Assembly (NCBI RefSeq): GCF_014207595.1
Contig: NZ_JACHGY010000001.1
Location: 2,300,836-2,364,835, forward strand
Length of the DNA: 64,000 nucleotides
Direction of reading: 5' to 3'
From: Algisphaera agarilytica
GTDB taxonomy: Bacteria; Planctomycetota; Phycisphaerae; Phycisphaerales; Phycisphaeraceae
Of the stretch, positions 18,403-49,690 are shown piece after piece; positions within the stretch are counted from its first letter, which is position 1; the number at the start of each line of letters is the position of its first letter. The notes under the pieces are model-generated. The model saw only the letters and a program-made list of their open reading frames with translations. It was not told the DNA's origin and did no database searches. Both the position numbers and the translations under genes were made by a program.

Positions 18403-18469
18403 GTAGGGTGGGCAATGCCCACCGCATGTTGGGTGACGACCGATACGTGGTGGGCGGTGCCCACCCTAT
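18403..18469. repeat. Palindromic family P4 (TAGGGTGGGC...GCCCACCCTA), composite copy
   Basis: A TAGGGTGGGCAATGCCCACC unit and its inverted partner are separated by 25 bases. The same two-unit arrangement occurs at 23513-23575 and 37331-37394; single units lie at 21654 and 34400. Confidence 0.8.
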
Positions 18470-19454: not shown

Positions 19455-19496
19455 GGCGGGTCTCCGTGGTGTTCGGTGGGGGGGAGGGTAATGTAA

Positions 19497-19528
19497 TTGT
19501 TTAAACAACTATATGCTTGTTGAAACAA
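19497..19528. promoter_or_regulatory. Two tandem MarR operator-like dyads before doxX
   Basis: TTGTTTAAACAA (19497-19508, perfect palindrome) and TTGTTGAAACAA (19517-19528, one mismatch) have centres 20 bases apart, two helical turns. A related TGTTTCAAC half occurs before the marR gene. Binding by the MarR protein is inferred from position. Confidence 0.6.
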
Positions 19529-19604
19529 ATATCAAGCGCCAGCGAAAAAATTTTTGACCCCCCGTTTCTTGATCAGACCCCCCATTTTCAGCCAGCGGTT
19601 ATAC

Positions 19605-19800: not shown

Positions 19801-19859
19801 CGTCAGAACCGAGGGCGATACAACAGAACCGTGTGCGATCAAATTCCCCGGAACAGGCT

Positions 19860-20360: not shown

Positions 20361-20396
20361 TGTGGGAGTCTAGGGGCGGTGGCAGGTTCAATTAAG

Positions 20397-20405
20397 TGTT
20401 TCAAC
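20397..20405. promoter_or_regulatory. Partial MarR operator-like element before marR
   Basis: TGTTTCAAC matches nine bases of the inverted form of the doxX upstream dyad TTGTTGAAACAA. It is 37 bases upstream of the marR start. Confidence 0.45.
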
Positions 20406-20520
20406 GATTATTTTAGACGCCCGATTCCACATTTCCAGTTTTTTGCGCGCGGGATGCGGTATCGTTGTCGTTTTGGCGGGACCACGCGACCCGTTAGACC
20501 TCTAACCCACCGAGCCGACC

Positions 20521-21462: not shown

Positions 21463-21922
<460 letters not shown>

Positions 21923-21996
21923 TTGAACGAAGTGAAAGCGGGATGCCGCATCGCGGCCCTAAGCATCGCTTCGCGTGACGGATTCCGTGAGAACGC

Positions 21997-22014
21997 AATC
22001 CTGTCACCCCGATT
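21997..22014 (+). repeat. Duplicate of the tRNA-Pro 3' end
   Basis: AATCCTGTCACCCCGATT is an exact 18-base direct repeat of 21907-21924. It sits directly before the terminator hairpin at 22017-22036, so about 90 bases have been placed between the tRNA and its terminator. Confidence 0.85.
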
Positions 22015-22016
22015 CC

Positions 22017-22036
22017 GCCGCTTCACGCGGCTTTTT
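22017..22036 (+). terminator. Terminator after tRNA-Pro
   Basis: GCCGC, loop TTCAC, GCGGC, then TTTTT. Confidence 0.7.
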
Positions 22037-22084
22037 CATTGCCGACGGCGTCGGCAGCCCCAGGCCGGCAACAGGGATGCACCT

Positions 22085-23401
22085 TTGTCCGAACCTCCAG
22101 CGTTCCATCCCGTTGTCCTCCTGCCCACGTACAACAACGCCCCCAAGCTCATCGGCGTGCTCGAGCAGGTGGTGGCGTTGGGTCATACGGCGCTCGTCGT
22201 GAACGATGGCTGTACCGACGACACCGCGGAGTTGCTCGAGGGGTTTATCGCCGAATTGGCTGATGTGAGTTCGGTCACGGTGGTGCACCACGAGCGCAAC
22301 CGCGGCAAGGGGGCGGCGCTGAGGACCGGGTTTAACGAAGCCCGCAAGCTCGGGTACACCCACGCGCTCTCGATGGATACCGATGGCCAACACGACCCCG
22401 CCGACGCCGCGGCGTTACTCAATGCAACTGAAGCGCAGCCGACCGCGTTGGTGCTGGGCACGCGTGACGCCAACGACCCCGACTACCCGTCTGCGAACCG
22501 GGTCGGGCGGGTGTTCTCGAACCTGTGCATTTTCATCGGCTCGGGCCGACGGATCGAAGACAGCCAGTCGGGCTACCGCGTGTACCCCTTGGGGCTGGTC
22601 GAAACGATTCAGTGTCGGGCGGGGCGGTACGGGTACGAAGCCGAGATTCTGACGCGCTCGGGCTGGGCGGGTTGTCCGCTGGTGCAGCTGCCGATCCGCG
22701 TGATCTATCCGCCGGGGGAGGAGCGGATCAGCCACTTTCGGCCGTGGATGGATTCGTTGCGCAGCGCGGCGTTGCACCTTCGGCTGTTCGTGCGGGCGGT
22801 GTTGCCGCTGCCGTTCAAGAAGTGGCCGCCCCCGGAAGAAGTCAAAGACGAAGCGGACGCTCTGCCCAAGCAAGCGTGGTGGAAGCGCGTCTTGCTGTGG
22901 TTCGATCCGCGGGAGTTGGTGCGCAGCGCACGCCGAGACCGGGTGAGTCAGATGAGTGTCGCGGCGGGCTTGGGGGTGGGCGCATTTGTCGCCAACCTGC
23001 CGGTGTATCCCGTGCAGACGCTGGTGGCGGTGTACCTCGCCAAGCGGCTGCACCTGCACCCGGTGTCGACGGTGGCGGGTTCGCAGCTGGCGTTTCCGCC
23101 GGTGGGGTTGGCGCTCATCTTCGCGGCGATCTATCTGGGGCACTTTGTGCTCACGGGCGAGCCGCCACGCTGGTCGGATTTCAGCGAGTTGGGCTCGCTG
23201 AGCTTCAGCGAGATCCGCGGGCTGATGCACGAGTATTTCCTGTCGTGGTGGATCGGCGGCGTGACACTCGGGACTGTGATTGGCTTGGCGACCTTTGCCC
23301 TGGGCATCATGCTGCTCAAGTGGGTGCCGGTGGAGAGTGAGGGTGTGGTGGTGGCTTCCAACCGCTCTCCCTCTGGGGGAGCTGTCGCCGAAGGCGACTG
23401 A
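22085..23401 (+). CDS. GT2 family glycosyltransferase fused to DUF2062 membrane domain
   Basis: About 438 residues. The frame is open from 21923, through the tRNA tail, so the start is uncertain; I choose TTG 22085, giving LSEPPAFHPVVLLPTYNNAP. GT2 motifs: VVNDGCTDDT, RGKGAALRTGF, SMDTDGQHDP (DxD-like), DSQSGYRVYP. The C-terminal part has DUF2062-like membrane helices (MSVAAGLGVGAFVANLPVYP; PPVGLALIFAAIYLG). The last 13 residues (NRSPSGGAVAEGD) and the stop codon come from a P5 repeat. It probably makes a polyprenyl-linked or surface glycan, and may serve the cell-envelope cluster next door. Confidence 0.85.
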   Translation: MSEPPAFHPVVLLPTYNNAPKLIGVLEQVVALGHTALVVNDGCTDDTAELLEGFIAELADVSSVTVVHHERNRGKGAALRTGFNEARKLGYTHALSMDTDGQHDPADAAALLNATEAQPTALVLGTRDANDPDYPSANRVGRVFSNLCIFIGSGRRIEDSQSGYRVYPLGLVETIQCRAGRYGYEAEILTRSGWAGCPLVQLPIRVIYPPGEERISHFRPWMDSLRSAALHLRLFVRAVLPLPFKKWPPPEEVKDEADALPKQAWWKRVLLWFDPRELVRSARRDRVSQMSVAAGLGVGAFVANLPVYPVQTLVAVYLAKRLHLHPVSTVAGSQLAFPPVGLALIFAAIYLGHFVLTGEPPRWSDFSELGSLSFSEIRGLMHEYFLSWWIGGVTLGTVIGLATFALGIMLLKWVPVESEGVVVASNRSPSGGAVAEGD

Positions 23402-23491
23402 GGGGGAAGGTGAGTACGGATTCGCTTGGTACTTGGGCGTTCCCCCTCCGACCCGCTTTGCGGGCCACCTCCCCCGGCGGGGGAGGGGTTG
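23365..23491. repeat. Palindromic repeat family P5, copy overlapping the GT2 3' end
   Basis: Starts CTCTCCCTCTGGGGGAGCTG, has the CGCCGAAGGCG hairpin, GACTGAGGGGGAAGGTGAGT, and ends CCACCTCCCCCGGCGGGGGA. Copies at 30912-31042 and 42604-42745 (inverted) share this order. The TGA of GACTGAGG is the glycosyltransferase stop. Confidence 0.75.
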
Positions 23492-23512
23492 GGTTTTGAT
23501 GTACCGATAGGA

Positions 23513-23575
23513 GTAGGGTGGGCAGTGCCCACCGGCGGGTTTGATGGCGTACGGGGTGGGCGGTGCCCACCCTAC
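23513..23575. repeat. Palindromic family P4, composite copy
   Basis: Two inverted TAGGGTGGGC-type units 21 bases apart. The right unit supplies the TAG stop codon of the polysaccharide deacetylase gene on the minus strand. Confidence 0.8.
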
Positions 23576-24321
23576 TGATATGCCGGAAGGTCGAGCAGTT
23601 CGTCGAGCCGGACGATCTCGAATCCCTTGTCACGCAATTGATTGACCAACGGCACCACCGCCTCGGCGGTCACGCTGCGTGACGCGGGGTACTCCGGCTC
23701 GTGGCCGTCGTGGAGCAGCAGCACATCGCCGTCGCGGGCCTTGGTCAGGCGTTTGAGGATCTTGGTTTTCTTGGGCGGATTCTTTTTGCCGTCGAGTGCT
23801 TTGCGGGACCATGTGACGACGGTGTGTCCGCCGAACTTGGCCTCCTGCATCATGTGCCAGTGCTTGAGTCCCATCGGCGGGCGGAACATCGCCGGGCGTT
23901 TGCCCAGGAGGTCGTAGACCGCGTCGTCCGTCAGGTCGATCTGGCGACGCCAGAACGCGTTGAGGCCCCACAGGCCCTGACGGTCGTGGTCGAAGGTGTG
24001 GTTCGCGATGAGGTGGCCCTCGTCGTGGATGCGTCGCAACAGGTGCGGGTGCCGTTGGACGTTGCGCCCGATCACGAAGAACGCGGCGGGGGCGTCGACG
24101 GACTTAAGCGCATCCAGTACAGCTGGCGTGCTGTCGGGCGTCGGTCCATCATCAAAAGTCAGCGCCACGCGTGGCTTCTGGTTCTCGCCCACCGGCCAAC
24201 CGCGGTGCACGAGCGCCCCCATGATCCGGCTGCGCGGGTGCACCATCCCCCAGCCCAGCAAACTGCCGCCGAAGAGCGCCGCCGGGGCGATGATGGTGAA
24301 CCAGGTGGAGGGGACGTCCAT
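23572..24321 (-). CDS. Polysaccharide deacetylase (NodB/CE4 family)
   Basis: A 249-residue protein with an N-terminal hydrophobic segment (about 8-26) that may anchor it. CE4 motifs: VALTFDDGPTPDSTPAVL (catalytic base and metal Asp), ANHTFDHDRQG (the H-xxx-H metal pair), FRPPMGLKHWHM and LLLHDGHEPEYP. It should deacetylate an N-acetyl sugar polymer or lipid-linked sugar in the envelope. It converges with the GT2-DUF2062 gene; the stop codon is within a P4 repeat. Confidence 0.92.
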   Translation of the reverse strand: MDVPSTWFTIIAPAALFGGSLLGWGMVHPRSRIMGALVHRGWPVGENQKPRVALTFDDGPTPDSTPAVLDALKSVDAPAAFFVIGRNVQRHPHLLRRIHDEGHLIANHTFDHDRQGLWGLNAFWRRQIDLTDDAVYDLLGKRPAMFRPPMGLKHWHMMQEAKFGGHTVVTWSRKALDGKKNPPKKTKILKRLTKARDGDVLLLHDGHEPEYPASRSVTAEAVVPLVNQLRDKGFEIVRLDELLDLPAYQ

Positions 24322-24329
24322 CCGGAGAG

Positions 24330-24436
24330 TTTAGAGGTTCCGTCGCTACGCGCGTAACGCATCACCCATAGCCGGGCGGCTACGCCGCCCTGGACCAGCG
24401 ACGCGTAGCGTCGCGGTTACTTGATCAGATGGGTTT
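24330..24436. repeat. Palindromic intergenic repeat
   Basis: GTCGCTACGCG is mirrored by CGCGTAGCGTCGC, and between them is GGGCGGCTACGCCGCCC. It separates the deacetylase gene from the last gene of the large cluster. Confidence 0.55.
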
Positions 24437-24440
24437 GTAG

Positions 24441-25916
24441 TTACTCACTAGCGGGCGAAACAATCGGCGGGACCCAGCCCGGCTCGACCGCGTCCATCGT
24501 CTCCGCCGCACGCAGCGGGCCTTCGACCGGACGCTTGGTCGTCATCAGAAACGCCGCGGAGTTGACCTGGTTCAGCCCGCCGTGCGTCGACAGCGGGTCG
24601 ATGACCCAGGTGAACCACTCGATACCCGCGCAGTACCCGTCGCGGAGTGTGACCATGACCTGCGGGTTGTTGCGGGTCTGCCCGTGGAATGCGTCCCACA
24701 GCCGCGCGGGAGCATCCGGGAAGAGGTGGTCCGCGGTGCGTTCGAACCATTCGTCTCGGCTGAGCGGCACGTTCGAGAGTTCGCTGCCGTAGTCCAGCGG
24801 GTCGCCGTCTTGCAGGGCGTAGGTCAGGCGTTGGTCGGCCATCGTGATCCGCGCGGTACCGCCGACATTCCGCACCACGACATCGGGGCCGTCCATGGTC
24901 GCGATCGTCTCGATCTCGGGCACCTCGGCGAGTAGCGCCTCGCTCACCGCTTCGGGTTGCGAGGTGTGCACGCCGAACCAGGTCATGAGTCCGTCCATCT
25001 CGACGAACACGTCGTCGGCCTGTTTGAGTTTGTCGGTGATGCGGAACCCGGCCTGCTCCAGCTTTTCTTCGACATCGATCCAGGCGGTCTCGGCCAGGTT
25101 GTGCCCGTGGTCGGACATGACGGTGATCTGCACCGCGCCCTTGCGTTCGTACATGACCTGAAGCAAGAAGCGTTCGAGTTCATTGAGCGTTTCGTCGAGG
25201 CCCGGCTGGCCGTACTTCATGATCATCGCCGAGGCGGTGGCGATGTAGACGATGGTGGTGCGGTCGGGGCTGGCGTCGAAGGCCTGGCGGGCGCGTTCGA
25301 ACTCGACGCCGAGCCACGGCCGGGGCTTGAGCCAGGCCGAAGAGTTGTCCGAGTAGTCGATGTTGTAGTGCAGGCGTTGCTGCCAGGGGTTGCGGTAGCC
25401 GCCCAGGCGTTTGTTGATGAGGTTGTTCACGCCGTTGTGCTGCGGGCGGGGGTCGTAGTGCTTGTTGATCGCCCCGGGCATCGGCGGGGCGTGGAGGATG
25501 TCGCTGAAACACACGGCCGACATGCTGGGGTAAGGCGCGATGACTTTCACCGGCCGGTGGAACGCGCCCCACACGCTCGGCGGCCGTTGGGCGAGGCTGC
25601 GCATCAGCGCGTCGTACGGGATCGAATCGATCAGCACGATCAGGTGCGGCACCTCGTCGGGGTCGTAGTCGGCCAGGCGGTAGAGCCGGTCGGGTTGACC
25701 GTCCCGGTCGTCGTCGTACGCCAGCGATTCGAGTCGGCCTTCGTCGTTGTGGGCTAGCGCGAAGTCGGGCGTGTCGTCGCGGTTGGTGTCGTACCAGGTC
25801 TCGAAGCCTTGGGTGTGCGTGGGCGCATCGGGGAAGTGCAGCCGATCGCCGGGTACACAACCCATGCACAAGGCCAGACCAACCAAGACCGGTAGCAGTA
25901 GGGTCAGACGTGTCAT
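24441..25916 (-). CDS. Lipoprotein with alkaline-phosphatase-superfamily (nucleotide pyrophosphatase-like) domain
   Basis: A 491-residue protein starting MTRLTLLLPVLVGLALCMGC; the lipobox LCMGC gives lipidation at about Cys20. An EF-hand-like DTNRDDTPDFALAHNDEGR and a further DDDRDGQPDRLYRL look like calcium loops (about 45-80). The catalytic fold shows HLIVLIDSIPYDALM (metal Asp), YPSMSAVCFSDIL (possible nucleophile Ser/Thr region) and TVMSDHGHNLAETAW (metal Asp-His). It overlaps the exporter stop by four bases (ATGA), so it is the last gene of the pigment-type operon. A role in trimming or transferring an envelope head group is possible. Confidence 0.8.
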   Translation of the reverse strand: MTRLTLLLPVLVGLALCMGCVPGDRLHFPDAPTHTQGFETWYDTNRDDTPDFALAHNDEGRLESLAYDDDRDGQPDRLYRLADYDPDEVPHLIVLIDSIPYDALMRSLAQRPPSVWGAFHRPVKVIAPYPSMSAVCFSDILHAPPMPGAINKHYDPRPQHNGVNNLINKRLGGYRNPWQQRLHYNIDYSDNSSAWLKPRPWLGVEFERARQAFDASPDRTTIVYIATASAMIMKYGQPGLDETLNELERFLLQVMYERKGAVQITVMSDHGHNLAETAWIDVEEKLEQAGFRITDKLKQADDVFVEMDGLMTWFGVHTSQPEAVSEALLAEVPEIETIATMDGPDVVVRNVGGTARITMADQRLTYALQDGDPLDYGSELSNVPLSRDEWFERTADHLFPDAPARLWDAFHGQTRNNPQVMVTLRDGYCAGIEWFTWVIDPLSTHGGLNQVNSAAFLMTTKRPVEGPLRAAETMDAVEPGWVPPIVSPASE

Positions 25917-28558
25917 GCCAGAGTCGTCTCCAGCGTATCCAGGGAGGACTTGCGCGGGTACAGCAGGATCAGCACCGGCAGCAGGGTAAGGACCGACGCG
26001 GCCCACGCGGCGCCGACGCCCATCGCGGTGAACCAGCCCAGCGACCGGATGGCGGGGACGCTGGTGAAGGCGAGTGAGCCGAAGGCGAGGCCGGTGGTGA
26101 CGCTGGTCATGGTGATCGCGTGGGCGCTGGCGGCGAGGTGATCGATCAGCACACGCCGGTTCTCGCCAAGCTTTCGACAACGCCGGGCGATGGCGACCAG
26201 GAAGATGCCGTCGTCCACGCCGATGCCCACGACCAGTGGCATCGCGATGAGGTTGATCGCGTTGAGCGTCAAGCCGAACACCTCGGCACAGGTCACCAGC
26301 GCTAAGACCCCGGCAAACGAAGGCACGAGCGCCAGCACCAGATCGCCCGGCCGACGGAAGAAGATCAGCAGCCAGGCCAGCACGAGGCCCGCGGCGATGA
26401 GCAGCAGCTTGGTGAGGTGGTCGCCGATGGCTTGCTGGGTGTCGTAGCCGACGACGGTGATGCCGGTGAGCGTGGCCGAGCCGCGAGGCGGGTGGTGCGA
26501 CGAGATCATTTCGATCATGCCGAGTTTTTCTCGCGCTGCTTCGATCGTGGCGTCGCGATCGTCCACCGTCATCCACGGCCGACTCAGCGTGACCAGGACT
26601 AAGCCCTCGGTGGGCGGGTGTTGACCACGCGGCAGCACCATGCCCGCGAGTTCGGGGTAGGCCGACAGGTCTTCAAACGTTGGCGGACCGCTGGTCAGCA
26701 GCGTACGCAGGAAGTCTTCGGTTTCGCCAAAGGCCCCGGCGTTGAAGCCCGCCGCGTCGGCCGAGGCACGCAGGTCGTCGATCACGCGTTGCACTTCGTT
26801 ATCGTTCCACGCCAAATCGGCATCCAGAGGTGCGGGCAGCAGCGTGCCGGGGCCGACCACCCCCGCGACGCCGGAGGGGATCGGCTCGCCCGCGGTGAGC
26901 AGGTGCTGCGCCTGGCGTGCGGTGCTGAGCATCGTCTCGGGCGAATCACCTTCGACCAGGATCATCAACGAATCCTGCGCCGCGCCAAACACCTCGGCCA
27001 GGGTTTCTTGCGTGTCCAGCGGCGGGTGGGGGCGGGGGTGCAAGGCATGAAGGTCGCTGTCGAAGGCGAGTGGCGAGTGCCAGCCCGTCTCCCGATCGAT
27101 CGAGCCCAGCACGACCGTGAACCCCGCGGCGACGATCACCACCGCGCTCAGCCAGACGTAGCGCTTGGGGTGGCGGGCGACGTGGCGGACGGTGGGGGCG
27201 AGGTCGAAGCGGGTGGCGGAGAGGCCGTGCTTGGCGAAGCGGGTGGGGCCGAGGGTGGCGAGCAGGGCGGGCAACACGGTGATGGACGCGAGCAGGGCCA
27301 GGCCGAGCCCGAGCATGCCCAGCAAGGCGAACTCGCGCAGCGACTGCACGCTCGAGCTCAGCACCGCGCCGAAGCCGATGAGCGAGGTGACACATGCCGC
27401 CATCACGGCTGGGCCTACGGCCGCGACGGTGTGCACCCCCGCCGCGCGGTCGTCGCCGTCTTTACGAGACCGCTTCACCGCTTCGTGGTGTGACAGTACG
27501 TGGACGCAGTAGTCGATGCCCAGCCCGGCGAGCACCGCGCCCGCGACGGCGGTGACGGGGGTGAGTCGACCCGACAAGACGCCGTAGACGCCGAAGGCGG
27601 TGACGATCGCCGCGTACACCGGCAGCTTCAGCAGCCAGAACGCCATGGGGTGGCGGTACACCACGATGAAGACGACAACGAGCAGCAGGATCGACCCCGT
27701 GCAGCTGCGGATCATGTCGGCCCGGGTCTGCGACGCGCTGAGCTCGGCGATCGCGTAGGCCCCGGTGTAGTCAATCCGTAATTCGCCGTCGGGGTTCGCG
27801 GCGGCAACTGCTTCACGGATGCGCGGCATGAACTCGGCCGTGAAATCCAAGTCCCCGGCCGACTCACGGCCCATGATGCGGATCATGATCGCACTGCCGT
27901 CGCGGCTGACCATCGCGCCCGTGCCTTCCATGAACTCGCCGCCCCCGCCCCCGGACGAAAACTGCCCGGCGTTCTCCGAAAGAAAATCGCGCAGCCGAAG
28001 CGGGTCGCGGATCAATTCTTTGGCGAGTCGGCCCGCGGCGGGCCCGGGCGCGGCGATCATCGCGGCGTTCTGTGCAAACTGCTCGTCCATCGCGGCGCGG
28101 GTCAGGCGTTGTTGCAACGCCGCCCGCTGGTCTTGGTCGAGGTAGTACAGCCCGTGCGGGATCACGACTTCTTCGATGAACGCCGCGGCCTGCTCGGAGG
28201 AGCGGTAACGCAGCGAGGCCACCATCGGGTCGTCGGCGAGTTCCTGTTCGAGACGCTCGGCAAATCCGATCAGCCGGTCCGGGTCAGATTCGCTGTCGTG
28301 CATAGGCAGGCGGGCCAACACGATCAGGTCGTCGACCAGGGCGTAGTTGCCCACAACCTTGCCCAGCGCGACCGCGGAGGGCTGATCGTCGGCGAGCATG
28401 TCCTGCACGCCGGTGGCGGGTTTGATCTGTAACGCGATGAGCAGGCCTGCGGTCGAGAGCAGGAGCGTGATGAGCAGCGTCGCGAGCGGCCGGGCTGTCA
28501 CCAGCCGGGCCCACGCCGCGAACAGCCCGCGTGGCTCGTGGGTCGGCGTCTCGCTCAC
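25913..28558 (-). CDS. MMPL/RND-type lipid exporter of the cluster
   Basis: An 881-residue membrane protein in two similar halves, each with one helix, a large periplasmic loop and five or six helices (first helix about 27-47; second block about 268-420; third about 465; last block about 715-865). GIDYCVHVLSHHEA and GVDDGIFLVAIARR are the paired Asp-containing helices expected for proton-driven MMPL/HpnN-type transporters. A GTG start overlaps the lipoprotein stop by four bases. Aryl polyene and xanthomonadin clusters encode such exporters to move the lipid-like product outward. Confidence 0.9.
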   Translation of the reverse strand: MSETPTHEPRGLFAAWARLVTARPLATLLITLLLSTAGLLIALQIKPATGVQDMLADDQPSAVALGKVVGNYALVDDLIVLARLPMHDSESDPDRLIGFAERLEQELADDPMVASLRYRSSEQAAAFIEEVVIPHGLYYLDQDQRAALQQRLTRAAMDEQFAQNAAMIAAPGPAAGRLAKELIRDPLRLRDFLSENAGQFSSGGGGGEFMEGTGAMVSRDGSAIMIRIMGRESAGDLDFTAEFMPRIREAVAAANPDGELRIDYTGAYAIAELSASQTRADMIRSCTGSILLLVVVFIVVYRHPMAFWLLKLPVYAAIVTAFGVYGVLSGRLTPVTAVAGAVLAGLGIDYCVHVLSHHEAVKRSRKDGDDRAAGVHTVAAVGPAVMAACVTSLIGFGAVLSSSVQSLREFALLGMLGLGLALLASITVLPALLATLGPTRFAKHGLSATRFDLAPTVRHVARHPKRYVWLSAVVIVAAGFTVVLGSIDRETGWHSPLAFDSDLHALHPRPHPPLDTQETLAEVFGAAQDSLMILVEGDSPETMLSTARQAQHLLTAGEPIPSGVAGVVGPGTLLPAPLDADLAWNDNEVQRVIDDLRASADAAGFNAGAFGETEDFLRTLLTSGPPTFEDLSAYPELAGMVLPRGQHPPTEGLVLVTLSRPWMTVDDRDATIEAAREKLGMIEMISSHHPPRGSATLTGITVVGYDTQQAIGDHLTKLLLIAAGLVLAWLLIFFRRPGDLVLALVPSFAGVLALVTCAEVFGLTLNAINLIAMPLVVGIGVDDGIFLVAIARRCRKLGENRRVLIDHLAASAHAITMTSVTTGLAFGSLAFTSVPAIRSLGWFTAMGVGAAWAASVLTLLPVLILLYPRKSSLDTLETTLA

Positions 28559-29337
28559 GGCGACATCGTCTCCGCTTGCTCGTCATCCAGGGTGTCGATC
28601 CGCACCGCCCGCCGCGAGGGCTTGAACGCGCGGGGGTTGAGTTCGCCGTTGAGTTCGACGTCGCGGAAGGTCATCTCGACGGTGCCGAAGTCGCCCTCTA
28701 CCACTACGCGTTGATACCAATACAACGTTTCGTAGATTGAAAAGTTAGTTTCAACGCCAACGGAAGGCTCGGATGGGTTTGTACTGCCGAACGCAGAGTT
28801 TTCTGGAACAAGGGAACGCTGATTGATCTGTGTGTATCCTTCGGGCCAAGTCGCGAAAATCGCAGATTCCGATGTGGGTACATCCGAGCCCAAAAGCGGG
28901 TTAATCAAACTCATACTGGCTTGGCGATAGTCTGGTCCGCGCAACAGCTTGCCGAGTTGATCGGTCAATTTCGCCAGGTCTTGCTCAGCATCCGGCGCTT
29001 GCTTCTTCATCTCCTCGTTCGCCACGATGAACGTGCCGTCGGGTGTCGCGGTGAGGTCGAAGACGGTTTGGTTGAGTTTCCACGCCCGCATGCGGAAGCG
29101 GTCGTCGCCCTGGATCACCAGCGCCGCGTCGAGCGTGTTGGTCTGCTCGTCCGGGGCGGGGGTGGTGATCTTGAGTTTGAGCTGGGCCTGCACCGATTCG
29201 ATGGCGTTCTGCCGATCGATCAGGATCTGGCGGGCGTCTTCGAGCGTGTCCCATTCGACGGCCGGCAGCGGCGGGGCGGTGGTGACACAGCCCGGCAGCA
29301 CCGCGATCGCCGCCAGCAGCAAAGCCCCCCATTTCAT
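28555..29337 (-). CDS. LolA/LolB-like outer membrane lipoprotein of the cluster
   Basis: A 260-residue lipoprotein: AAIAVLPGCVTTAPPL gives a clear lipobox at about Cys16. The remainder is beta-strand-rich with alternating hydrophobics (VQAQLKLKITTPAP, TLDAALVIQGDDRFRMRAWKL, VVVEGDFGTVEMTFRDVELN) like LolA/LolB-type half-barrels. The start overlaps the AMP-ligase stop (ATGA) and its stop overlaps the exporter start. It likely receives a lipid-like product in the periplasm. Confidence 0.75.
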   Translation of the reverse strand: MKWGALLLAAIAVLPGCVTTAPPLPAVEWDTLEDARQILIDRQNAIESVQAQLKLKITTPAPDEQTNTLDAALVIQGDDRFRMRAWKLNQTVFDLTATPDGTFIVANEEMKKQAPDAEQDLAKLTDQLGKLLRGPDYRQASMSLINPLLGSDVPTSESAIFATWPEGYTQINQRSLVPENSAFGSTNPSEPSVGVETNFSIYETLYWYQRVVVEGDFGTVEMTFRDVELNGELNPRAFKPSRRAVRIDTLDDEQAETMSP

Positions 29338-30803
29338 GCGGGCACCTGGACCTTCCGCCGCAGCACCTTGCCGGTCGGGCTTTTGGGTAACGCGGCGCGG
29401 ACCTCGAACGTGCGCGGGACTTTGTGCGCGGCGAGGCGTTCGCGGAGGAACGAACGCAAGACGTGTTGATCGACCTCGCCGTTGGCTGCGGTGAGCACGG
29501 CCTTAACGCGGTTGATCGTCGGCGAAACCGGGTCGGGCACGACGACACACTCAGCGACCTGCGGATGGCTGACGAGCACCTGCTCGACTTCGATCGGGTT
29601 GACCTTCACGCCGCCGACGTCGATGAGCAGCTTGAGTCGGCCGGTGATTTGGAGGGCGCCATCCGCGTCGAGTCGGCCGAGGTCGCCGGTGAGGAAGTAG
29701 CCGTCGGTCAGGCTGTCGGCCGTGAGTTCGTCGGGGCCGAGGTATCGGCTGAACATCGACGGGCCGCGGACTGCGACGTGGCCTTCCTGTCCGTCGGGCA
29801 GCGGGAGCGAGGGGTCGGGCTGCTCGGGGGCGAGGATGCGGATGTCGACGCCGGTCATGGGCTTGCCGACGTGGTGGGGTTCGCGGTCGAAGGTGACCGA
29901 GCCGATCTCGGTGCTGCCGTAGAGCTGGCCGAGGCGGAGGCCGTCGCGTTCTTCGAGTCGGTTGGCCAGGGCCGGCGGGAGCGTCGCGCCCGCCGAGTAG
30001 GCGAGGCGTAGCTTGCCACGGCCCGCGCCCATGCGGTCGATCATCTCGAACATCGCGGGCACGCCGGGCAGGACCGTCGCGCCGCTGGTGACGGCCAACG
30101 TCGGGTCGAACCCGCGCCCAGGTTGGTCAGCAGGAACCACGTGATGCAACGCACACGCCCCGGCGACGATCGGCGCGAGCATGCCGTTCTCGATGCCGTA
30201 GGAATGGGACAAAGGTACGGCCGCGACCACACGGTCATCCCGCCGAAGCCCGACGGCCTCGGCGACGTTGTGGGCCACCGCGTCGAGCGACGGGCCCGAG
30301 CGTTTGACGATCTTGGGGCCGCCGGTGGTGCCCGAGCTCTGCAGGAGCAGCCAGGCGTCGTTGCTGCGGTCGGTGGGGCGGGGCGTTGGCTCGGTGTCGT
30401 GTTGCAGCAGGTCGTCGGTGCGGATCACGGGCACGCCCACCGATTCGAGCCGGGGCAGGACGACGTCGTCGGCGATGATGGCGTCGACGTCGGCGCGATC
30501 CACAAGCTGCTGGAATTCGATCGCGGTCAGCGACGCATCGACCGGGAAGACGGTTCGGCCCGAATGCAGCACCCCCAGAAACACCGGCACGCGGGACGGG
30601 CGGTTGTGGCCGAGGACCATCACGACCGCGTCTTGGGGGAGTTGATCGCCGAGCTGCGCGGCCACGGCACCGACTTGCCGATCGAGCTGCGCCCACGTCA
30701 GATCGGGATGCTCGTCGGCCAACGGCCCGATCACCCGCACCGCCGCCTCGTCGCCCCGTTGGGTGGCGTGGTCGCGTAGCGTGGCAAACAGATCAAGGCC
30801 CAT
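29334..30803 (-). CDS. AMP-dependent acyl/aryl-CoA or ACP ligase of the cluster
   Basis: A 489-residue ANL-family enzyme. WLLLQSSGTTGGPKIVKRSG is the ATP-phosphate loop, LGQLYGSTEIGSVTF the A5-like motif, YFLTGDLGRLDADG the A7 Asp, and PKSPTGKVLRRK the C-terminal catalytic Lys. In xanthomonadin and aryl polyene loci this enzyme activates a hydroxybenzoate or cinnamate-type starter for loading onto ACP; the chorismatase gene in the same operon could provide 3-hydroxybenzoate. Substrate is inference from context. Confidence 0.88.
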   Translation of the reverse strand: MGLDLFATLRDHATQRGDEAAVRVIGPLADEHPDLTWAQLDRQVGAVAAQLGDQLPQDAVVMVLGHNRPSRVPVFLGVLHSGRTVFPVDASLTAIEFQQLVDRADVDAIIADDVVLPRLESVGVPVIRTDDLLQHDTEPTPRPTDRSNDAWLLLQSSGTTGGPKIVKRSGPSLDAVAHNVAEAVGLRRDDRVVAAVPLSHSYGIENGMLAPIVAGACALHHVVPADQPGRGFDPTLAVTSGATVLPGVPAMFEMIDRMGAGRGKLRLAYSAGATLPPALANRLEERDGLRLGQLYGSTEIGSVTFDREPHHVGKPMTGVDIRILAPEQPDPSLPLPDGQEGHVAVRGPSMFSRYLGPDELTADSLTDGYFLTGDLGRLDADGALQITGRLKLLIDVGGVKVNPIEVEQVLVSHPQVAECVVVPDPVSPTINRVKAVLTAANGEVDQHVLRSFLRERLAAHKVPRTFEVRAALPKSPTGKVLRRKVQVPA

Positions 30804-30906
30804 GGCGGTCTCGAAAGGATCAACCGGTCACGCGGGCACCACGCCCACGCTGAGGCTTTCGATTATACGTTGCGTGGCGAACCACTCGGCCATCTGCGGA
30901 GCGGGT

Positions 30907-32370
30907 TTAAACTGCTCCCCTTTCGGGGGAGCTGTCGCTGAAAGCGACTGAGGGGGAAGGTGAGTACTCGGCCGCTTGGTATTCGGGCTGCCCCCTCCGA
31001 CCGGCTTCGCCAGCCACCTCCCCCGACGGGGGAGGGGTTGTCGCGAGTTCTGCGGACTGGGGACTCGTTGCGGGCTGCGGTGTCTCGGCGAGCAGCGAGA
31101 ACCCGGGGCGACGCGGCACAAGCGGCAGCCATTGCTGCAACGCGACACAGGCGTAAAACGCCCGCATCCGCCAACGCACCGCCCACGACGGCCGGGGGAA
31201 GACCTGCCCAGCCAACACGGCGATGACGGCGCGGTGCATCGACAGCGGGCCTTCGCCGTTGAGGAACAGATCGCGGAACCGCGGGTTGTAGTACGCGCGG
31301 ATCAAGCGGAAGAAGTGCCGGGTACCGTTGCGGAGGAACTGGGTGTATTGCTGCTGGGCCTTGACGGGCGAGGTTTTCTCGTCCAGCAAGCGGTCGATCT
31401 GGTGCGCCGCTTCGTTGGCCCCTTCGAGCCCGAGGAAGATGCCGGTGGAGAACACGGGGTCGAGGAACGTCGCCGCGTCGCCCACGAGGAAGTAGCCCGG
31501 CCCGGCAAACGGGGCGCAGGTGTAGGAGTAGTCGCTGATCGAGTTGTTCGTCGGCGGGTGCACGGCGTGCTTCACGCGGTCGCGCACCAGCGGGCAGCGT
31601 TCGATGCCCCAGGCCAGCATCTGGTTGGCGGGGCGTTTGACCTGCTTGGCGACCGCGGCGTCGAGCACGAGGCCGATGCTCGTGCGGGTCTCGTCGATGG
31701 GGATCATCCAGAACCAGCCCTCGTCGCAGAGGACCATGGTGATCTCGTCTTCGCCCAGCGCGTTGTCGCGGTCGACGTGTTCGAAGTGGCCGAAGTAGGC
31801 GATCTTTTGCAGCGACGGGTCGGTGTAGTTCTGCCGGGTCTTGAGGTGTCGGCCGACGACGGTCGATTGCCCGGTGGCGTCGACGAGGTACTTGCCACGC
31901 AGTTCGCCTTGGGCGGTCTGCACGCGGACGTCGCCGTCTTGCAGCTGCAGGATCTTCTCCACCCGGCAGTCGCAGCGCACCTCGGCCCCGGCGCGCCGCG
32001 CCGCGCTGAGCATCGCGTCGTCCAGCACGGCCCGTTCGATGTTGAACGTTTCTTTCGCCCCGGGTGTGAGCGACTGAGCGAACTTGATCCGGCTGCCCGC
32101 AGAGTTGTCGCCCAACGCGAACTCAACGCCGTTTTTCTTGAAGCGGGGCAGCGATTCAAATTCTTCGAGCAGCCCGAGTTCTTCGAAGACTTTCATGTCC
32201 TCGGGGATCAGCGACTCGCCGACGTGGAAACGCGGGAAGGTGGTCTTCTCCAGCACGACCACCCGCCGGCCTTTTCGGGCCAGGATCAACGCCGCGGCAG
32301 CGCCCGCCGGGCCGCCACCGAGCACGATGGTGTCGTACACCTCCGGGAGCTTGTCGTCGGGCGGGTTCAT
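30907..32370 (-). CDS. Flavin-dependent halogenase-like oxidoreductase with repeat-derived C-terminus
   Basis: A 487-residue FAD protein. Motifs: IVLGGGPAGAAAALILARKG (Rossmann), FPRFHVGESLIP, GWFWMIPID (matches the WxWxIP halogenase signature) and ATFLDPVFSTGIFLG (matches FxxPxxSxG). These mark the flavin-dependent halogenase / geranylgeranyl-reductase-like group, so halogenation of an aromatic ring is plausible, as brominated xanthomonadins are known. From about residue 440 (ATTPPPSGEVAGEAGRRG to the end) the protein is encoded by a P5 repeat, so the native C-terminus was replaced or extended. Confidence 0.82.
   Translation of the reverse strand: MNPPDDKLPEVYDTIVLGGGPAGAAAALILARKGRRVVVLEKTTFPRFHVGESLIPEDMKVFEELGLLEEFESLPRFKKNGVEFALGDNSAGSRIKFAQSLTPGAKETFNIERAVLDDAMLSAARRAGAEVRCDCRVEKILQLQDGDVRVQTAQGELRGKYLVDATGQSTVVGRHLKTRQNYTDPSLQKIAYFGHFEHVDRDNALGEDEITMVLCDEGWFWMIPIDETRTSIGLVLDAAVAKQVKRPANQMLAWGIERCPLVRDRVKHAVHPPTNNSISDYSYTCAPFAGPGYFLVGDAATFLDPVFSTGIFLGLEGANEAAHQIDRLLDEKTSPVKAQQQYTQFLRNGTRHFFRLIRAYYNPRFRDLFLNGEGPLSMHRAVIAVLAGQVFPRPSWAVRWRMRAFYACVALQQWLPLVPRRPGFSLLAETPQPATSPQSAELATTPPPSGEVAGEAGRRGQPEYQAAEYSPSPSVAFSDSSPERGAV
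30912..31042. repeat. Palindromic repeat family P5, copy inside halogenase 3' end
   Basis: CTCCCCTTTCGGGGGAGCTG, a CGCTGAAAGCG hairpin, GACTGAGGGGGAAGGTGAGT and CCACCTCCCCCGACGGGGGA in the same order and spacing as 23365-23491. Confidence 0.8.
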
Positions 32371-32387
32371 AGGGTGACTTTAGGCGT

Positions 32388-33188
32388 TTACCGGGCGTCG
32401 GCCATGCCCTCGATCTCGACGCCGAGGTCGGGGCGGCAGAGCGGGGCGTGGACCATTTCGATGCGCCCGACCAGGTGCGGCAGGCGTTGGTGCACGTGTT
32501 CGAGGATTGCGTCGGCGTCTTTTTCGTGGACGTGGTAGACGCGGACGTCGTGCAGGTCTTCCAGGCCGTTGGCCCCGGCCTCGCAGAGCAGGGCATCGAT
32601 GTTGTCGAGGGTTTCGCGGGTCTGTTCGGGCAGGTTGCCGACGTGGACCGAGTCTTCGCCGAGGATGCTCGACGTGCCGCCGACCAAAACGCGGCGGGTG
32701 TCGGAACGCGCGTCGTCGGCGACGAGCGTGGCGCGGGCGAAGCAGGGCGGCAGCGGGCCGTAGGCCTGCGAGTACCGGTAGGCGGCGCACTGACGCGGGT
32801 TCTCGATGGGTCGGCCCGGCAGGCGGTCGGCCAGGCAGTGGACGATCAGGTCCGTGCCGCTGTGTCCAACGCCCGTGGCGGTGGCGATGTGCGGGGCCAG
32901 GCGGTCGCGGTCGGCGGCGCAGAACCAGTCGGAGAACGCAGCAAAGCGGCCGGCGTTGAAGACCATGTAGCGGTCCAGGCCGTCTGCGGCGGCGGCGTCG
33001 ACGATGCCGGGGATGAAGTTCCAGAAGCGGACGGGGTGGTGGGCCAGGCCTTCGTCCAGGGCGCGACGCACCATGCGGTAGGCCGCGGTCGAGGCGTGCT
33101 GGAGTTCGAGGTCGGGGAGGATGTCGGCGTGGGCGACGCGGACCACCGCGTGGGTGAACCGTGGGCCGTAGCTGACCCGGCCGACCAT
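32388..33188 (-). CDS. Chorismatase (FkbO/Hyg5/XanB2-like), start uncertain
   Basis: At least 266 residues. RFWNFIPGIVDAAAADGLDRY, ATGVGHSGTDLIVHCLA, ENPRQCAAYRYSQAYGPLPP followed by CFARATLVADD, and the C-terminal VEIEGMADAR are family features. Chorismatases split chorismate to a hydroxybenzoate or dihydroxy acid plus pyruvate. The coding frame continues upstream of Met 33188 with family-like WVQEWVGPPSDVRTLDQRDS to an in-frame stop near 33318, but contains no ATG, GTG or TTG; a CTG near 33308 or an ATT start is possible. It lies between the halogenase and KS-CLF genes. Confidence 0.85.
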   Translation of the reverse strand: MVGRVSYGPRFTHAVVRVAHADILPDLELQHASTAAYRMVRRALDEGLAHHPVRFWNFIPGIVDAAAADGLDRYMVFNAGRFAAFSDWFCAADRDRLAPHIATATGVGHSGTDLIVHCLADRLPGRPIENPRQCAAYRYSQAYGPLPPCFARATLVADDARSDTRRVLVGGTSSILGEDSVHVGNLPEQTRETLDNIDALLCEAGANGLEDLHDVRVYHVHEKDADAILEHVHQRLPHLVGRIEMVHAPLCRPDLGVEIEGMADAR

Positions 33189-33378
33189 GGTCAGGCCGCT
33201 GTCCCGCTGGTCGAGCGTCCGGACGTCGGATGGGGGGCCGACCCACTCCTGAACCCATCGGGGCGCAGACGGGGTGGGTCGAATTGGGGTCGTGGTGGCG
33301 ATCAGTGTGCTATCTCACATGTCGGGGCGTCGTGACGCCGTGATGCCCGGCCCTGGGCGCTTACGCGACCATAACATT

Positions 33379-35685
33379 CTAATGCATGGGCAAGCGGATG
33401 CGAGCGCAAGATGTGAGACCGTTGAAGTCCGTGCCCAGCACCGCGACCCGCTCGGGCGTCGAGTGGGTTTCGGAGCCGGGTGCACCCCCGAGCAGTGCCG
33501 CCGCCACGCCCGCCAACGGCCCGGCACTGAAACTCTCCGCCAGCGAGCCGCTCAAATCGGTCATCGTCACGCCGGACCGGCGGATCGCCGCTTTCTCGAC
33601 GCGGTCGAGCCAGGTCCCGTGGTGTGAGCCGATCGCCTGACTCACGCCAAGGCCGTGTTGCTGTTCGAGCAGTGTCCGCAGGCCGCTGACTCCCAGCGCG
33701 ATGCGCCGGTTGAAGTGGACCTGCGAACTGGATTCCACGACGCCACGGCAGCGTGCCCCGCGCGCCTCGGCGGACGCTTGGCTCTCCAGGATCAGCGTCA
33801 CCGCGGCAGCACAGGTCTGCATCGGCAGGCCCAGTTCGGCGTAGCAGCGATCGACCAGTTCGTCGTGCTCTTCGCCCGCGCACACCACGGCCCGGTCCCA
33901 CTGCCCCTCGGCGATGCGCAGCGACGCGAGCCGCAATGCATCGAGTCCCGCGGTCCGCGAGCCGATGATCGACTGGCACGCCCCGCGGAGCTTGAACGAC
34001 ATGCTCAGGTGCGCCGCCCCGGCATTCGGAACGCCCTCGGCGAAGAGCATCGGGTTGGCGGTGTTGAGTCCGTCGTCGACGATGCCGCGGTAGTAGTCGT
34101 AGCTGTAGTGCGTCGAGCCGTGCGCGGTGCCGAGGATCGCTGAGCAGTTGGCGGTGAAGGCTTCGCGCTGGTCTTCGGTGATCTGCGCATCCTCGAACGC
34201 GAGCGTCGCGGCGGCGAGGGTGAGCTTGACGTAGTCGCTTAGTCGGCGGACCCGGCGGGCGTTGAGCAGGTGCAGATAGTCGTCCTCGGCCACGGGGCCC
34301 GTGATCGCGGGGCGTTGCTCGGCGAGGTGCGCGGCAAAGGCTTCGTTGCCGACGCAGCCCGGAGCGATGACGCCCACGCCGGTGATCCAGACCTCGTTTG
34401 TAGGGTGGGCACCGCCCACCAAACGGGATGCTGCCGGCTGGTCGCTGACGACGACGCAGGTGTTCGCGCCGCCGAAGCCGAGCGAGGTGTTGACGGTGGT
34501 GTGGATCGCCGCGGGTTGGCTGTCGCCCGCCGAGAGCTTGAAGTTCTCAAAGTCCACATCGCCCGGCGTGGTGGTGGCGGTGGTGGGCTGCATCTGATCG
34601 CGGACCGCGAGGCCCGCGAAGATCAGCTCCGCCGCGCCCGCCGCACCGAGTGTGTGGCCGAGTCGACTTTTCAGTCCGGCCACGGGTTTGTCGGGCATGG
34701 CGTCGCCGAACACCGAGGAGAGCGCGGCGACTTCGGCGGCGTCGTTGTCGGGGGTGCCGGTGGCGTGGGCGACGATGAGGTCGATGTCGTGGGGTGTTGT
34801 GTCGGCCTGGCTCATCGCCTGGGTGATGGCGCGGGCGGCGCCGCTGCCGTCTTGCACGGGCTGCGTGAGGTGGTGGGCATCCGCCGACTCGCCGCCGCCG
34901 CGCAGATAGAGGAACGCTCGGCCGCCGCGTTGTTGCAGGTCGCTTTCGCGTTCGACGGTCACGATGCCGTAGCCTTCGGAGACTTTCATCCCCGCGCGGT
35001 CACGGGCAAAGGGGCGGGGCAAGCGTTCATCCACCAAGCGCAGGCTGTTGAAACCCGCGTAGGCGTATTCGCTGATCGGGTCGTAGCCCCCGGCGATCAC
35101 CAGGTCGAGTTCGCCTGTGCGCAAGAGCGTCGCGGCGAGGAGGATGCTGCCCAGGCCCGAGGAGCAGGCCGAGCAGGTCGTGGCGTTGAAGCCTTCCAGC
35201 CGCAGGTGGGTCGTGGCCCGCGCGGCGACAGCGGGCGCAAGGAAATCGACCAGGGGCGCGGCGGAGTTCTGCCGGACCATCTTGCCCGCGGCGGTCATGC
35301 CGTGGAGCGTGGTGCCGAGCATGAGGCCGCAGCGCTCGGGGGCGTAGGGCCAAGACGATGGATCTTCGGGGTCTAGCCCCGCGTCACGCAGCGCTTCATC
35401 GATCGCAAAACGCAGGTAGGCGGGCTCACGTGGTTCTTCGGGGTCGGCGGGGTTGGGGTAGACGCCCGGGGCTTGAGCGACTTCGCCGCCGCCGCGGTCG
35501 GCTTGCTGGGGGTCTTCGATGGCGGTGTACGGCCCCAGGCCGATCTTGCCCGCCCGCAACGCTTCCCACGACGCCTCACGCCCGACGCCCAGGCTGATGG
35601 CGAGCCCGGCGCCGCTGATCACGATTCCCGTAGATTCCGATGCCAAATCCAAAACCCTCAATAACGGTCGGCCACGTCGCCCCAC
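33379..35685 (-). CDS. Fused beta-ketoacyl synthase and chain-length-factor-like protein
   Basis: A 768-residue protein with two thiolase-fold KS halves. KS1 (about 18-415) has the full triad: Cys174 in SACSSG, His307 in VAHATGTPDND, His344 in KSRLGHTLG. KS2 (about 432-768) has GSRTAG where ACSSG should be, so Cys is Arg577, and no triad His motifs, as expected of a chain-length factor. Residues about 422-429 of the linker come from a P4 repeat. The frame begins at GTG 35685; a TTG at 35652 with GAGGG upstream is an equally good start. Expected to elongate a polyene chain on ACP. Confidence 0.88.
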   Translation of the reverse strand: MGRRGRPLLRVLDLASESTGIVISGAGLAISLGVGREASWEALRAGKIGLGPYTAIEDPQQADRGGGEVAQAPGVYPNPADPEEPREPAYLRFAIDEALRDAGLDPEDPSSWPYAPERCGLMLGTTLHGMTAAGKMVRQNSAAPLVDFLAPAVAARATTHLRLEGFNATTCSACSSGLGSILLAATLLRTGELDLVIAGGYDPISEYAYAGFNSLRLVDERLPRPFARDRAGMKVSEGYGIVTVERESDLQQRGGRAFLYLRGGGESADAHHLTQPVQDGSGAARAITQAMSQADTTPHDIDLIVAHATGTPDNDAAEVAALSSVFGDAMPDKPVAGLKSRLGHTLGAAGAAELIFAGLAVRDQMQPTTATTTPGDVDFENFKLSAGDSQPAAIHTTVNTSLGFGGANTCVVVSDQPAASRLVGGAHPTNEVWITGVGVIAPGCVGNEAFAAHLAEQRPAITGPVAEDDYLHLLNARRVRRLSDYVKLTLAAATLAFEDAQITEDQREAFTANCSAILGTAHGSTHYSYDYYRGIVDDGLNTANPMLFAEGVPNAGAAHLSMSFKLRGACQSIIGSRTAGLDALRLASLRIAEGQWDRAVVCAGEEHDELVDRCYAELGLPMQTCAAAVTLILESQASAEARGARCRGVVESSSQVHFNRRIALGVSGLRTLLEQQHGLGVSQAIGSHHGTWLDRVEKAAIRRSGVTMTDLSGSLAESFSAGPLAGVAAALLGGAPGSETHSTPERVAVLGTDFNGLTSCARIRLPMH
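34400..34420. repeat. Palindromic family P4, single unit in KS-CLF linker
   Basis: TAGGGTGGGCACCGCCCACC, identical to the intergenic unit at 21655-21674. It encodes LVGGAHPT on the minus strand, between the two KS domains. Confidence 0.85.
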
Positions 35686-35724
35686 TGTATCGACTCACTC
35701 GGAAAACATCGATTCCGTGTCGCG

Positions 35725-36684
35725 TCATTCCGCGGCGTCTTCCACGAACGCGTGGTGCAAGACGTGCCATTGCTCGGGGTGCTCGTCCACGATCTGCTCG
35801 ATCGCACGGCCCACCGCGAGCGTTGCCGACTCCACCGCGCCCGCGTCGGGCACTTCGATCGGCTCTCCCAGGACAATACGCACCTCACCCGAGTCGGCTG
35901 CGCGGGACTTGGATTTTTCGGCGGGCACCCGGACCGCGAACACCGGGATCAGCGGCGCCCCGGTCATCATCGCCAGCTTGGCCGGGCCGATGGGTAGCGA
36001 AAGGTGGCCATCAAAGAACGGCACGTCCAGCCCACGCTGGCCCGGCATCACGCGGTCGCCCTGCAGCATCACCACCGCGTTGTCCTGCAACGCGTCACGC
36101 AGTGCCAGCCAGCTCGCCATGCCGTCGTCGATCGGCGTTTCGATGATCCCGAGGTTACGGTGCAGTTCGCTGCGGATGCGTTCGAAGCGCGATTGCTGAT
36201 CGCGTTGGAAGACGACGTGGACGCGCTCTTCGATCTCACGCATCGCTGCGAGGCCGACTTCGAAGTTGCCGAAGTGGGCGGTCACCAGGATCGCGCCGCG
36301 TTGGTTTTTGCGCTCGGCCAGGAACGGCTCTTTGCCTTCGATCTCGACGATACGCGACAGCAACTCGTCGAACGAACGGTCGTGGTTCGCCCCGATCTCG
36401 CAGACGAAGTCGTAGAAGCTGGCGACCACGCTTTTCCCCACCCGATCGACCTCGGCCCTGCTGGCTTGCGCTCCCAGAACGCGTCGCAGGTTGGCCCGCA
36501 CCGCGTGGCGCATCGAGCTCGCCGCGTGCCATGCGCCACTGACGAACAGCGGCCGCGACAGTTTGAGCAGCCAGGGTGTTCGCCTGGCCAGGCCGAAGAA
36601 GATTGATAGCCAGAAGTCGTTGAGCCGTTGGCCCAACGCGGGTGGTGGTGAAGCTTGCGTTGTGGGTTCATCCGGGGCGTTCAC
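35725..36684 (-). CDS. LpxL/HtrB-like lysophospholipid acyltransferase of the cluster
   Basis: A 319-residue protein. The HX4E catalytic motif is in ILVTAHFGNFEVGLAAM near residue 137; VMLQGDRVMPGQRGLDVPFFDG is the substrate-pocket motif and LIPVFAVR the following strand. A weak N-terminal membrane segment is at about 24-50. It would acylate a lipid or glycolipid acceptor with the polyketide-type chain, as proposed for XanF/ApeJ-type enzymes. The GTG start overlaps the LolA gene by four bases. Confidence 0.87.
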   Translation of the reverse strand: MNAPDEPTTQASPPPALGQRLNDFWLSIFFGLARRTPWLLKLSRPLFVSGAWHAASSMRHAVRANLRRVLGAQASRAEVDRVGKSVVASFYDFVCEIGANHDRSFDELLSRIVEIEGKEPFLAERKNQRGAILVTAHFGNFEVGLAAMREIEERVHVVFQRDQQSRFERIRSELHRNLGIIETPIDDGMASWLALRDALQDNAVVMLQGDRVMPGQRGLDVPFFDGHLSLPIGPAKLAMMTGAPLIPVFAVRVPAEKSKSRAADSGEVRIVLGEPIEVPDAGAVESATLAVGRAIEQIVDEHPEQWHVLHHAFVEDAAE

Positions 36685-37412
36685 TGGCCGACCGCCTCCA
36701 GGGGGCGGATCACCTTGGTGCCTTCGGGCACGGCGAGCTCCAGCTCGGCCGGGTCGAGCTCGGGGTTGAGCTGGATGTCGTGGAAGTGCATCACGGTGGT
36801 CTCGCCGTCGAGGTCGGTCATGGACAGGCGACGCATCGAGCCGAGCGCGGGGTCGATGTCGACGGCCACTTCTTCGAGCGCGTCGAGCATCTGCTCGGAC
36901 TTGGGCACCAGCGTGAGGGTGTAGAGTTTGTTGCCCTTGGTCCAGCCGGACGATTCGATCTCGAAGTTTTCTCTGAGCACCGCGAGGTCGGGCACGGGCG
37001 ACGCGGCGAGGGCGTCGAGCCGATCGCCCAGTTCGTAGATCTCGAGGATTTGCTGGTCGGGGTAGTACAAACGCAGCTCGCCGTCGGCGACGAGCATGGT
37101 CGAGGCGTAGGGCGGGTCGGTGTCCCAGCGCGAGACGCCGCCGTCTTCGCCCTCGGTGATCCAGACCCGGCCGGTGGATTCGATGGGGTCGCGCAGCAGC
37201 GGCGTGAATTTTTCCTGCCGGAACTGGGCGGTGTAGGTGGTGATGGGCTCACGGCCCGCTGCGATCTGCTCCAACTCTTCCCAGGCCGTGGTGTCGTCTG
37301 CCAAGACCGGCGTGCCGAGCAGAAGCATCAGTAGGGCGGGCACCGCCCACCACGTGAGCTTTGAACTTCCTGAGGTGGGCGGTGCCCACCCTGCAGCGGA
37401 TGGGTGTATCAC
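36681..37412 (-). CDS. LolA family carrier with repeat-encoded signal-peptide region
   Basis: A 243-residue protein. GTG 37412 overlaps the dehydratase stop (GTGA). The signal peptide ends LLMLLLGTPVLADD. Residues 7-27 (AGWAPPTSGSSKLTWWAVPA and one more) are encoded by a complete two-unit P4 repeat at 37331-37394, so the N-region is repeat-derived while the hydrophobic core is largely outside it. The mature part shows LolA features: TYTAQFRQEKFTPLLRDPIESTGRVW (residues about 61-86; key FRQEK) and TLTLVPKSEQMLDALEEVAVDID. It should carry a lipid-like product across the periplasm. Confidence 0.85.
   Translation of the reverse strand: MIHPSAAGWAPPTSGSSKLTWWAVPALLMLLLGTPVLADDTTAWEELEQIAAGREPITTYTAQFRQEKFTPLLRDPIESTGRVWITEGEDGGVSRWDTDPPYASTMLVADGELRLYYPDQQILEIYELGDRLDALAASPVPDLAVLRENFEIESSGWTKGNKLYTLTLVPKSEQMLDALEEVAVDIDPALGSMRRLSMTDLDGETTVMHFHDIQLNPELDPAELELAVPEGTKVIRPLEAVGQ
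37331..37394. repeat. Palindromic family P4, composite copy inside lolA-like gene
   Basis: TAGGGCGGGCACCGCCCACC and its inverted partner, 22 bases apart, wholly inside the coding sequence. Same layout as 18403-18469 and 23513-23575. Confidence 0.85.
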
Positions 37413-37852
37413 AAGGCGTCCTTCATGACCGTCGCGATGGTGAGCGAGCCCTTGGCCACGAGCTTGCTATCGCAACGGGCGATCACGTCGAAGTGGGTCA
37501 GTATCCTGACATTACGAACGAGGGTGGCGTGGAGTTCGATCTCGGCGGGGGGGACGACCGGCCGTTTGAGACGCAGATCGATCTGAGCGAGTTGCCCGCC
37601 GGCGTGTTGCTCGGCGTCGGCGTGGGTCAGGGCGACCAGGCCCGCCATCTGCGCCAAGGCTTCGCCCAGGAGCACGCCCGGGACGATCGGGTTGCCGGGG
37701 AAGTGGCCGGCGAAGAACGATTCGGTGCCATCGACACTCCACACGCCGCTGCCGGATTTGCCGGCGTCGAGTTCGGTGATGCGGTCCACGAAGCGGAAGC
37801 CGTCGCCGTGGGGCAGTTGGGTCAGGAGATCGTCGAGTTGGGCTTGGGTCAT
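37409..37852 (-). CDS. FabZ/FabA-like 3-hydroxyacyl-ACP dehydratase of the cluster
   Basis: A 147-residue hot-dog protein starting MTQAQLDDLLTQLPHGDGFR at 37852; the longer frame to 37945 runs through the ACP gap. SFFAGHFPGNPIVPGVLLGE and ALAQMAG carry the FabZ catalytic His and Glu. It would dehydrate the beta-hydroxyacyl-ACP to form the conjugated double bonds. No ketoreductase was found in the cluster to make its substrate, so the fatty-acid enzyme FabG may be borrowed. Confidence 0.88.
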   Translation of the reverse strand: MTQAQLDDLLTQLPHGDGFRFVDRITELDAGKSGSGVWSVDGTESFFAGHFPGNPIVPGVLLGEALAQMAGLVALTHADAEQHAGGQLAQIDLRLKRPVVPPAEIELHATLVRNVRILTHFDVIARCDSKLVAKGSLTIATVMKDAL

Positions 37853-37877
37853 GCGGGTCCGTGAAGAGGGATCGGGC

Positions 37878-38168
37878 CTAGGTGTTGAGATGGGGTTCGA
37901 GATAGTTCGCAAGGGTGGTGACGCTGGTGAAGATCTCCGGGCCAATCTGGTCGTTGGGGATCTTGTAGCCGTGGTCTTTTTCGATGCTGGTGACGACCAT
38001 GAGGAAGTCCAGCGAATCGAGGTCGAGCTCGGAACCCACCAGCGGCATGTCGTCGGTGATCTCGAACGAGCTGCCGAGCTTGAGGTCGCGACGGAGCAGG
38101 TCCTTGACCGTGTCGAGGGTCTGACGCGAAGCGGTGAGTTCGGGTTGGTCGGGGTTTCCGGAGGTCAA
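37878..38168 (-). CDS. Acyl carrier protein of the cluster
   Basis: A 96-residue protein from TTG 38168, with AGGA eight bases upstream; the longer frame to 38405 translates a repeat. ELDLDSLDFLMVVTSIEKDH carries the phosphopantetheine Ser at about residue 52. MPLVGSELDLDS and the helix III region are typical of aryl polyene and type II fatty-acid ACPs. It is the first gene of the same-strand run of eleven genes. Confidence 0.88.
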   Translation of the reverse strand: MTSGNPDQPELTASRQTLDTVKDLLRRDLKLGSSFEITDDMPLVGSELDLDSLDFLMVVTSIEKDHGYKIPNDQIGPEIFTSVTTLANYLEPHLNT

Positions 38169-49543: not shown

Positions 49544-49690
49544 CTCTCCCCTCGGGAGAGGGCTGGGGTGAGGGAACTCCGAGTCGTTTCCATCTCGCCG
49601 CAGATGTTTCCTGCCAGCGCCGACACCACGTTCCCCCTCCGACCGGCTACGCCGCCCACCTCCCCCGGCGGGGGAGGGGTTCCACGCCAT
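49544..49690. repeat. Palindromic repeat family P5, variant copy
   Basis: CCCTCTCCCCTCGGGAGAGG followed about 70 bases later by CCCCTCCGACCGGCTACGCC and CACCTCCCCCGGCGGGGGAG. It separates the convergent kinase and YHYH genes. Confidence 0.7.

Follow-up and report, generated by a model that had tools for sequence, protein, structure and literature searches.

Why should a short palindromic repeat, of a kind that normally keeps out of genes, lie in frame within two genes of a single pigment-type operon? The case comes from Algisphaera agarilytica, in a stretch of 64,000 nucleotides analysed as a whole (the window), where copies of the repeat stand inside a gene for a KS-CLF fusion and inside a lolA-like gene (Table 1). 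The initial annotation saw the repeat but listed it as "P4 repeats", missing both its nature as a GTAG-type REP (repetitive extragenic palindrome) and the resident RAYT gene. We favour, at a probability of about 85%, RAYT-linked spread of REPs, with in-frame insertions surviving only where the protein tolerates them.

Table 1. REP copies and host or neighbouring genes in the window.
Feature	Position	Strand	Evidence or remark
Intergenic REP pair	18403..18469	.	
Single REP unit between genes, same sequence as the KS-CLF unit	21654..21674	+	
REP pair at gene end	23513..23575	.	Provides the TAG stop for the minus-strand gene 23572-24321
KS-CLF fusion gene, 768 aa	33379..35685	-	Pfam domains; fused orthologues in G001, G024 and G005
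Single GTAG-REP unit inside KS-CLF	34400..34420	+	Read on the coding (minus) strand, gives LVGGAHPT in the inter-domain linker
lolA-like gene, 243 aa; its GTG start (37412) overlaps the TGA upstream	36681..37412	-	Pfam LolA; start conserved as ATGA in G001
REP pair inside lolA: two inverted units, 22-base spacer, codons 7-28	37331..37394	.	Sequence, frame check
FabA-like dehydratase gene upstream of lolA, stop overlapping the lolA start	37409..37945	-	

The repeat family and its RAYT genes

The unit belongs to the GTAG-type REPs and occurs mostly in REPIN-like inverted pairs. It is 21 bases long, GTAGGGYGGGCANNGCCCACC, and consists of a 20-base form, TAGGGTGGGCACCGCCCACC, with an adjoining G. 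As first annotated, exact copies of the 20-base form stand at 34401-34420 and 21655-21674; the window has eight sites within three mismatches of it, against 0.02 expected from shuffles. A pattern scan of the genome gave 55 matches; once an overlapping one inside the pair at 1015264 is set aside, there are 54 units, distributed over 32 sites. The stem is GGTGGGC/GCCCACC and nearly all units carry the GTAG tag, although choosing units by pattern biases these conservation figures upward. Genome-wide, the commonest arrangement is the inverted pair with GTAG outside: 22 clear pairs have starts 41-50 bases apart, and four more have a degenerate partner. Spacers of 20-29 bases separate the paired units; their sequences differ, with a mutual likeness slightly above that of shuffles (z about 4).

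The sites are dispersed and mostly extragenic. Genes were called from codon usage, after training on the retrieved regions; the calls cover the window and the stretches around each REP site. The gene caller placed 31 of the 32 sites between genes or at gene ends, KS-CLF being the exception; with the lolA start corrected by hand, the count is 30. Only two sites are thus intragenic although genes take up some 80% of the sequence sampled, a strong depletion (P about 1e-19). Divergent gene settings are rare. Besides a RAYT gene, three protein genes take their stop codon from the repeat's TAG: the window gene at 23572-24321, and those ending at G000:C1:479534 and 3246002 (G000 being the present genome). 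The first of these stops belongs to one of two further window pairs that the initial annotation had described, at 18403 and 23513; both are real. A 19-kb interval around the operon (window 18403-37394) holds five of the 32 sites, which was matched in 9 of 20000 simulations for an interval whose size was picked after seeing the data. (The window also holds dispersed repeats of two further families, D4 and D9, at 23353-23491, 30903-31040, and 49624-49682; CCCCCTCCGACC and CCTCCCCCGGCGGGGGAGGGG are frequent in them.)

A RAYT of 182 residues is encoded on the minus strand at G000:C1:317317-317865, between REP pairs at 317257 and 317894; the TAG of a flanking pair is its stop codon. The protein scores 168.6 bits with the RAYT equivalog NF047646, whose cut-off is 80. 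REPs on both sides of a RAYT gene are the usual layout of RAYT-REP systems (PMC2817692, PMC3733652), and this resident Y1/HUH transposase probably mobilises the REPs. A second RAYT gene (179.6 bits; G000:C1:666895-667606) has pairs of another GTAG palindrome, GTAGGTCAGGCATGCNTGCCTGAC, on either side; the genome contains about 70 units of that palindrome, all of them outside the window. That the second RAYT gene has a GTAG-REP family of its own supports RAYT-REP pairing.

Much of this is familiar. Di Nocera et al. (2013; PMC3733652) describe GTAG REPs in Planctomycetes, including in-frame intragenic copies and copies whose TAG serves as a stop codon, urge caution on N-terminal cases, and suggest that an insert may be neutral when it falls in a flexible linker or loop. 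The REPs described there share with ours the GTAG tag, the short palindrome, pairs with GTAG outside ("HH dimers"), and a location mostly near gene 3' ends; however, HH dimer spacers are usually conserved there and variable here, and the present genome has only 32 sites. Neither signal peptides nor polyketide or ketoacyl synthases are mentioned in the main text of that paper, which leaves the list of host genes to additional files. REP-RAYT systems (Nunvar et al. 2010; PMC2817692) and REPINs (Bertels and Rainey 2011; PMC3116915) likewise have a REP-flanked RAYT gene. The closest unit printed in PMC2817692, GTAGGGTGGGCTTNAGCCCACC of Haemophilus influenzae, differs in its loop and has a host in another phylum. 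Rickettsia palindromic elements (RPE) also lie in frame in protein-coding genes, but the short elements among them (RPE-4, RPE-6) bear a CGTC tag, and repeats tagged with CGTC show no association with transposase genes.

The exact REP pattern occurs in 10 of 294 sampled genomes of the phylum, with more than 25 units in two besides the present genome, and several further genera carry it in a sample of closer relatives. One family-level relative (G025) holds about 100 units, whose starts are often 51 bases apart; the RAYT profile search of that genome listed no match above the curated cut-off.

A single unit in the KS-CLF linker

The first intragenic copy lies in mid-gene, with a ketosynthase domain before it (Pfam ketoacyl-synt and Ketoacyl-synt_C at 21-370) and a second ketosynthase-like domain after it (Ketoacyl-synt_2 at 470-674). 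A frame check bears out its placement in the linker: the unit forms codons 422-429, within a linker of 21 residues. It is flanked by CGTTT and AAACG (34395-34425), which extend the stem across the GTAG bulge and may be there by chance.

Because the repeat sits exactly at the domain joint, it might be supposed to have created the gene by fusing two that were once separate. That supposition is ruled out by relatives in which KS and CLF are fused without it. KS-CLF is one reading frame in G001 (an uncultured Algisphaera, hence a congener; 71% identical), G024, and G005; in G018, the frame continues from KS into the start of CLF. Their linkers are unrelated in sequence and measure 21, 28, 43, and 26 residues in G001, G024, G005, and G018, respectively. 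The REP pattern was not found in any of these four genomes, all of which carry the same genes, although the G001 assembly is 78% complete and its absence there is not proof. The congener's linker, just as long as ours, contains no REP above chance: its best ungapped match, 13 of 21 bases, is equalled by 15% of shuffles, which gives no support to a decayed REP at this place. Orthologues with equal residues over unrelated DNA, which would have told against the initial annotation, are therefore not what this comparison shows. Fused orthologues with REP-free linkers make the fusion independent of the repeat. Judged by these comparisons, the REP neither created the fusion nor lengthened the linker unusually; given the equal length in G001, it may have replaced linker sequence instead.

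An inverted pair at the probable front of LolA

The second copy is a full pair. Its codons read AGWAPPT-SGSSKLT-WWAVPALL and are followed by native MLLLGTPVLA-DD, in a protein that scores above the cut-off for Pfam LolA and below the cut-offs for NCBIfam lolA and LolA2_flexi. The pair had been assigned to the front of the signal peptide, and so it appears: it accounts for the bulk of the n-region and for the first part of the hydrophobic stretch, whereas the cleavage end, MLLLGTPVLA, is native.

This placement depends on where translation begins. The GTG at 37412 has AAGGA six bases upstream and shares four bases (GTGA) with the TGA of the FabA-like gene; the orthologous junction in G001 has the same four-base overlap, as ATGA, which makes 37412 the likely start. 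A protein begun there carries, beyond Lys18, 20 uncharged residues in a row, the last of them PVLA before Asp-Asp. Alternatively, lolA could be translated from downstream of the repeat (from ATG 37328 or an internal GTG), with the pair serving as a leader or intergenic RNA element. A freely choosing codon model did prefer the ATG after the REP to 37412, but that model penalises REP sequence and ignores both the overlap and the ribosome site. The pair forms a strong hairpin, and PMC3733652 cautions that many N-terminal REPs are annotation errors. Against this, ATG 37328 has no such ribosome site before it, and starting there leaves only 10 uncharged residues (MLLLGTPVLA) before Asp-Asp, short for a signal peptide. 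We judge a start after the repeat, which would have undone the original assignment, quite unlikely. The pair thus likely lies within the lolA coding sequence, in a presumed signal peptide whose processing we infer from sequence. If the repeat codons were taken out, LolA would start with MIHPSA-MLLLGTPVLA, a beginning comparable with MNLPHPLAALALAAALL of G001.

Tolerated insertion or retained function

How, then, were these two copies kept? In the reading we favour, REP copies mobilised by the RAYT would have spread, and most copies that hit genes would have been lost. The two in the operon would have survived because the reading frame stayed intact and the sequence was free to vary at both places, a flexible KS-CLF linker and the LolA signal peptide. 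Among the KS-CLF orthologues, linker length and sequence do vary freely (21-43 residues), and REP-free orthologues have the same gene architecture. Insertion at both genes, and its neutrality, are presumed from comparison across orthologues 54-71% identical rather than near-identical strains. At LolA, the pair measures 64 bases, which three does not divide; its arrival must therefore have been accompanied by some further gain or loss of bases. The earlier proposal that domain joints and signal peptides tolerate the insert is plausible, although it draws on two cases, and its linker half already appears in PMC3733652.

The hairpins might instead have been retained for a role in the mRNA, for instance delaying ribosomes between the KS and CLF domains or adjusting the output of LolA relative to that of the upstream gene. 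The LolA pair has a predicted RNA hairpin of -50 kcal/mol (z -5.1) from nucleotide 19 of the gene, which would be just past the initiating ribosome, and the clustering of sites around the operon (subject to the post hoc interval) points the same way. However, the KS-CLF hairpin is unremarkable (z -1.9), and the linkers of the orthologues are not consistently more structured than expected (z -0.25 to -3.5); no conserved RNA structure was seen across them at the joint. Moreover, G001, G005, G018, and G024 keep the same genes in genomes where the REP pattern was absent. Overall, an mRNA role is unlikely; it may apply above all to LolA, and the orthologues offer it no support at the KS-CLF joint. 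Doubtful, too, is the idea that the pair was recruited into the export signal, contributing its sole n-region lysine and hydrophobic front, and that the REPs clustered at the operon influence its expression.

Tolerated, RAYT-linked insertion leaves the known picture of REPs unchanged. The case is a well-documented new example of phenomena known since 2013 (PMC3733652): intragenic GTAG REPs, REP stop codons, and linker tolerance. It is also well bounded: in an Algisphaera-like planctomycete, a RAYT-linked palindrome has turned into protein sequence, and a congener free of the insertions can be set beside it. Linker and signal peptide, in KS-CLF and LolA respectively, provide concrete hosts for studying how proteins absorb such inserts.
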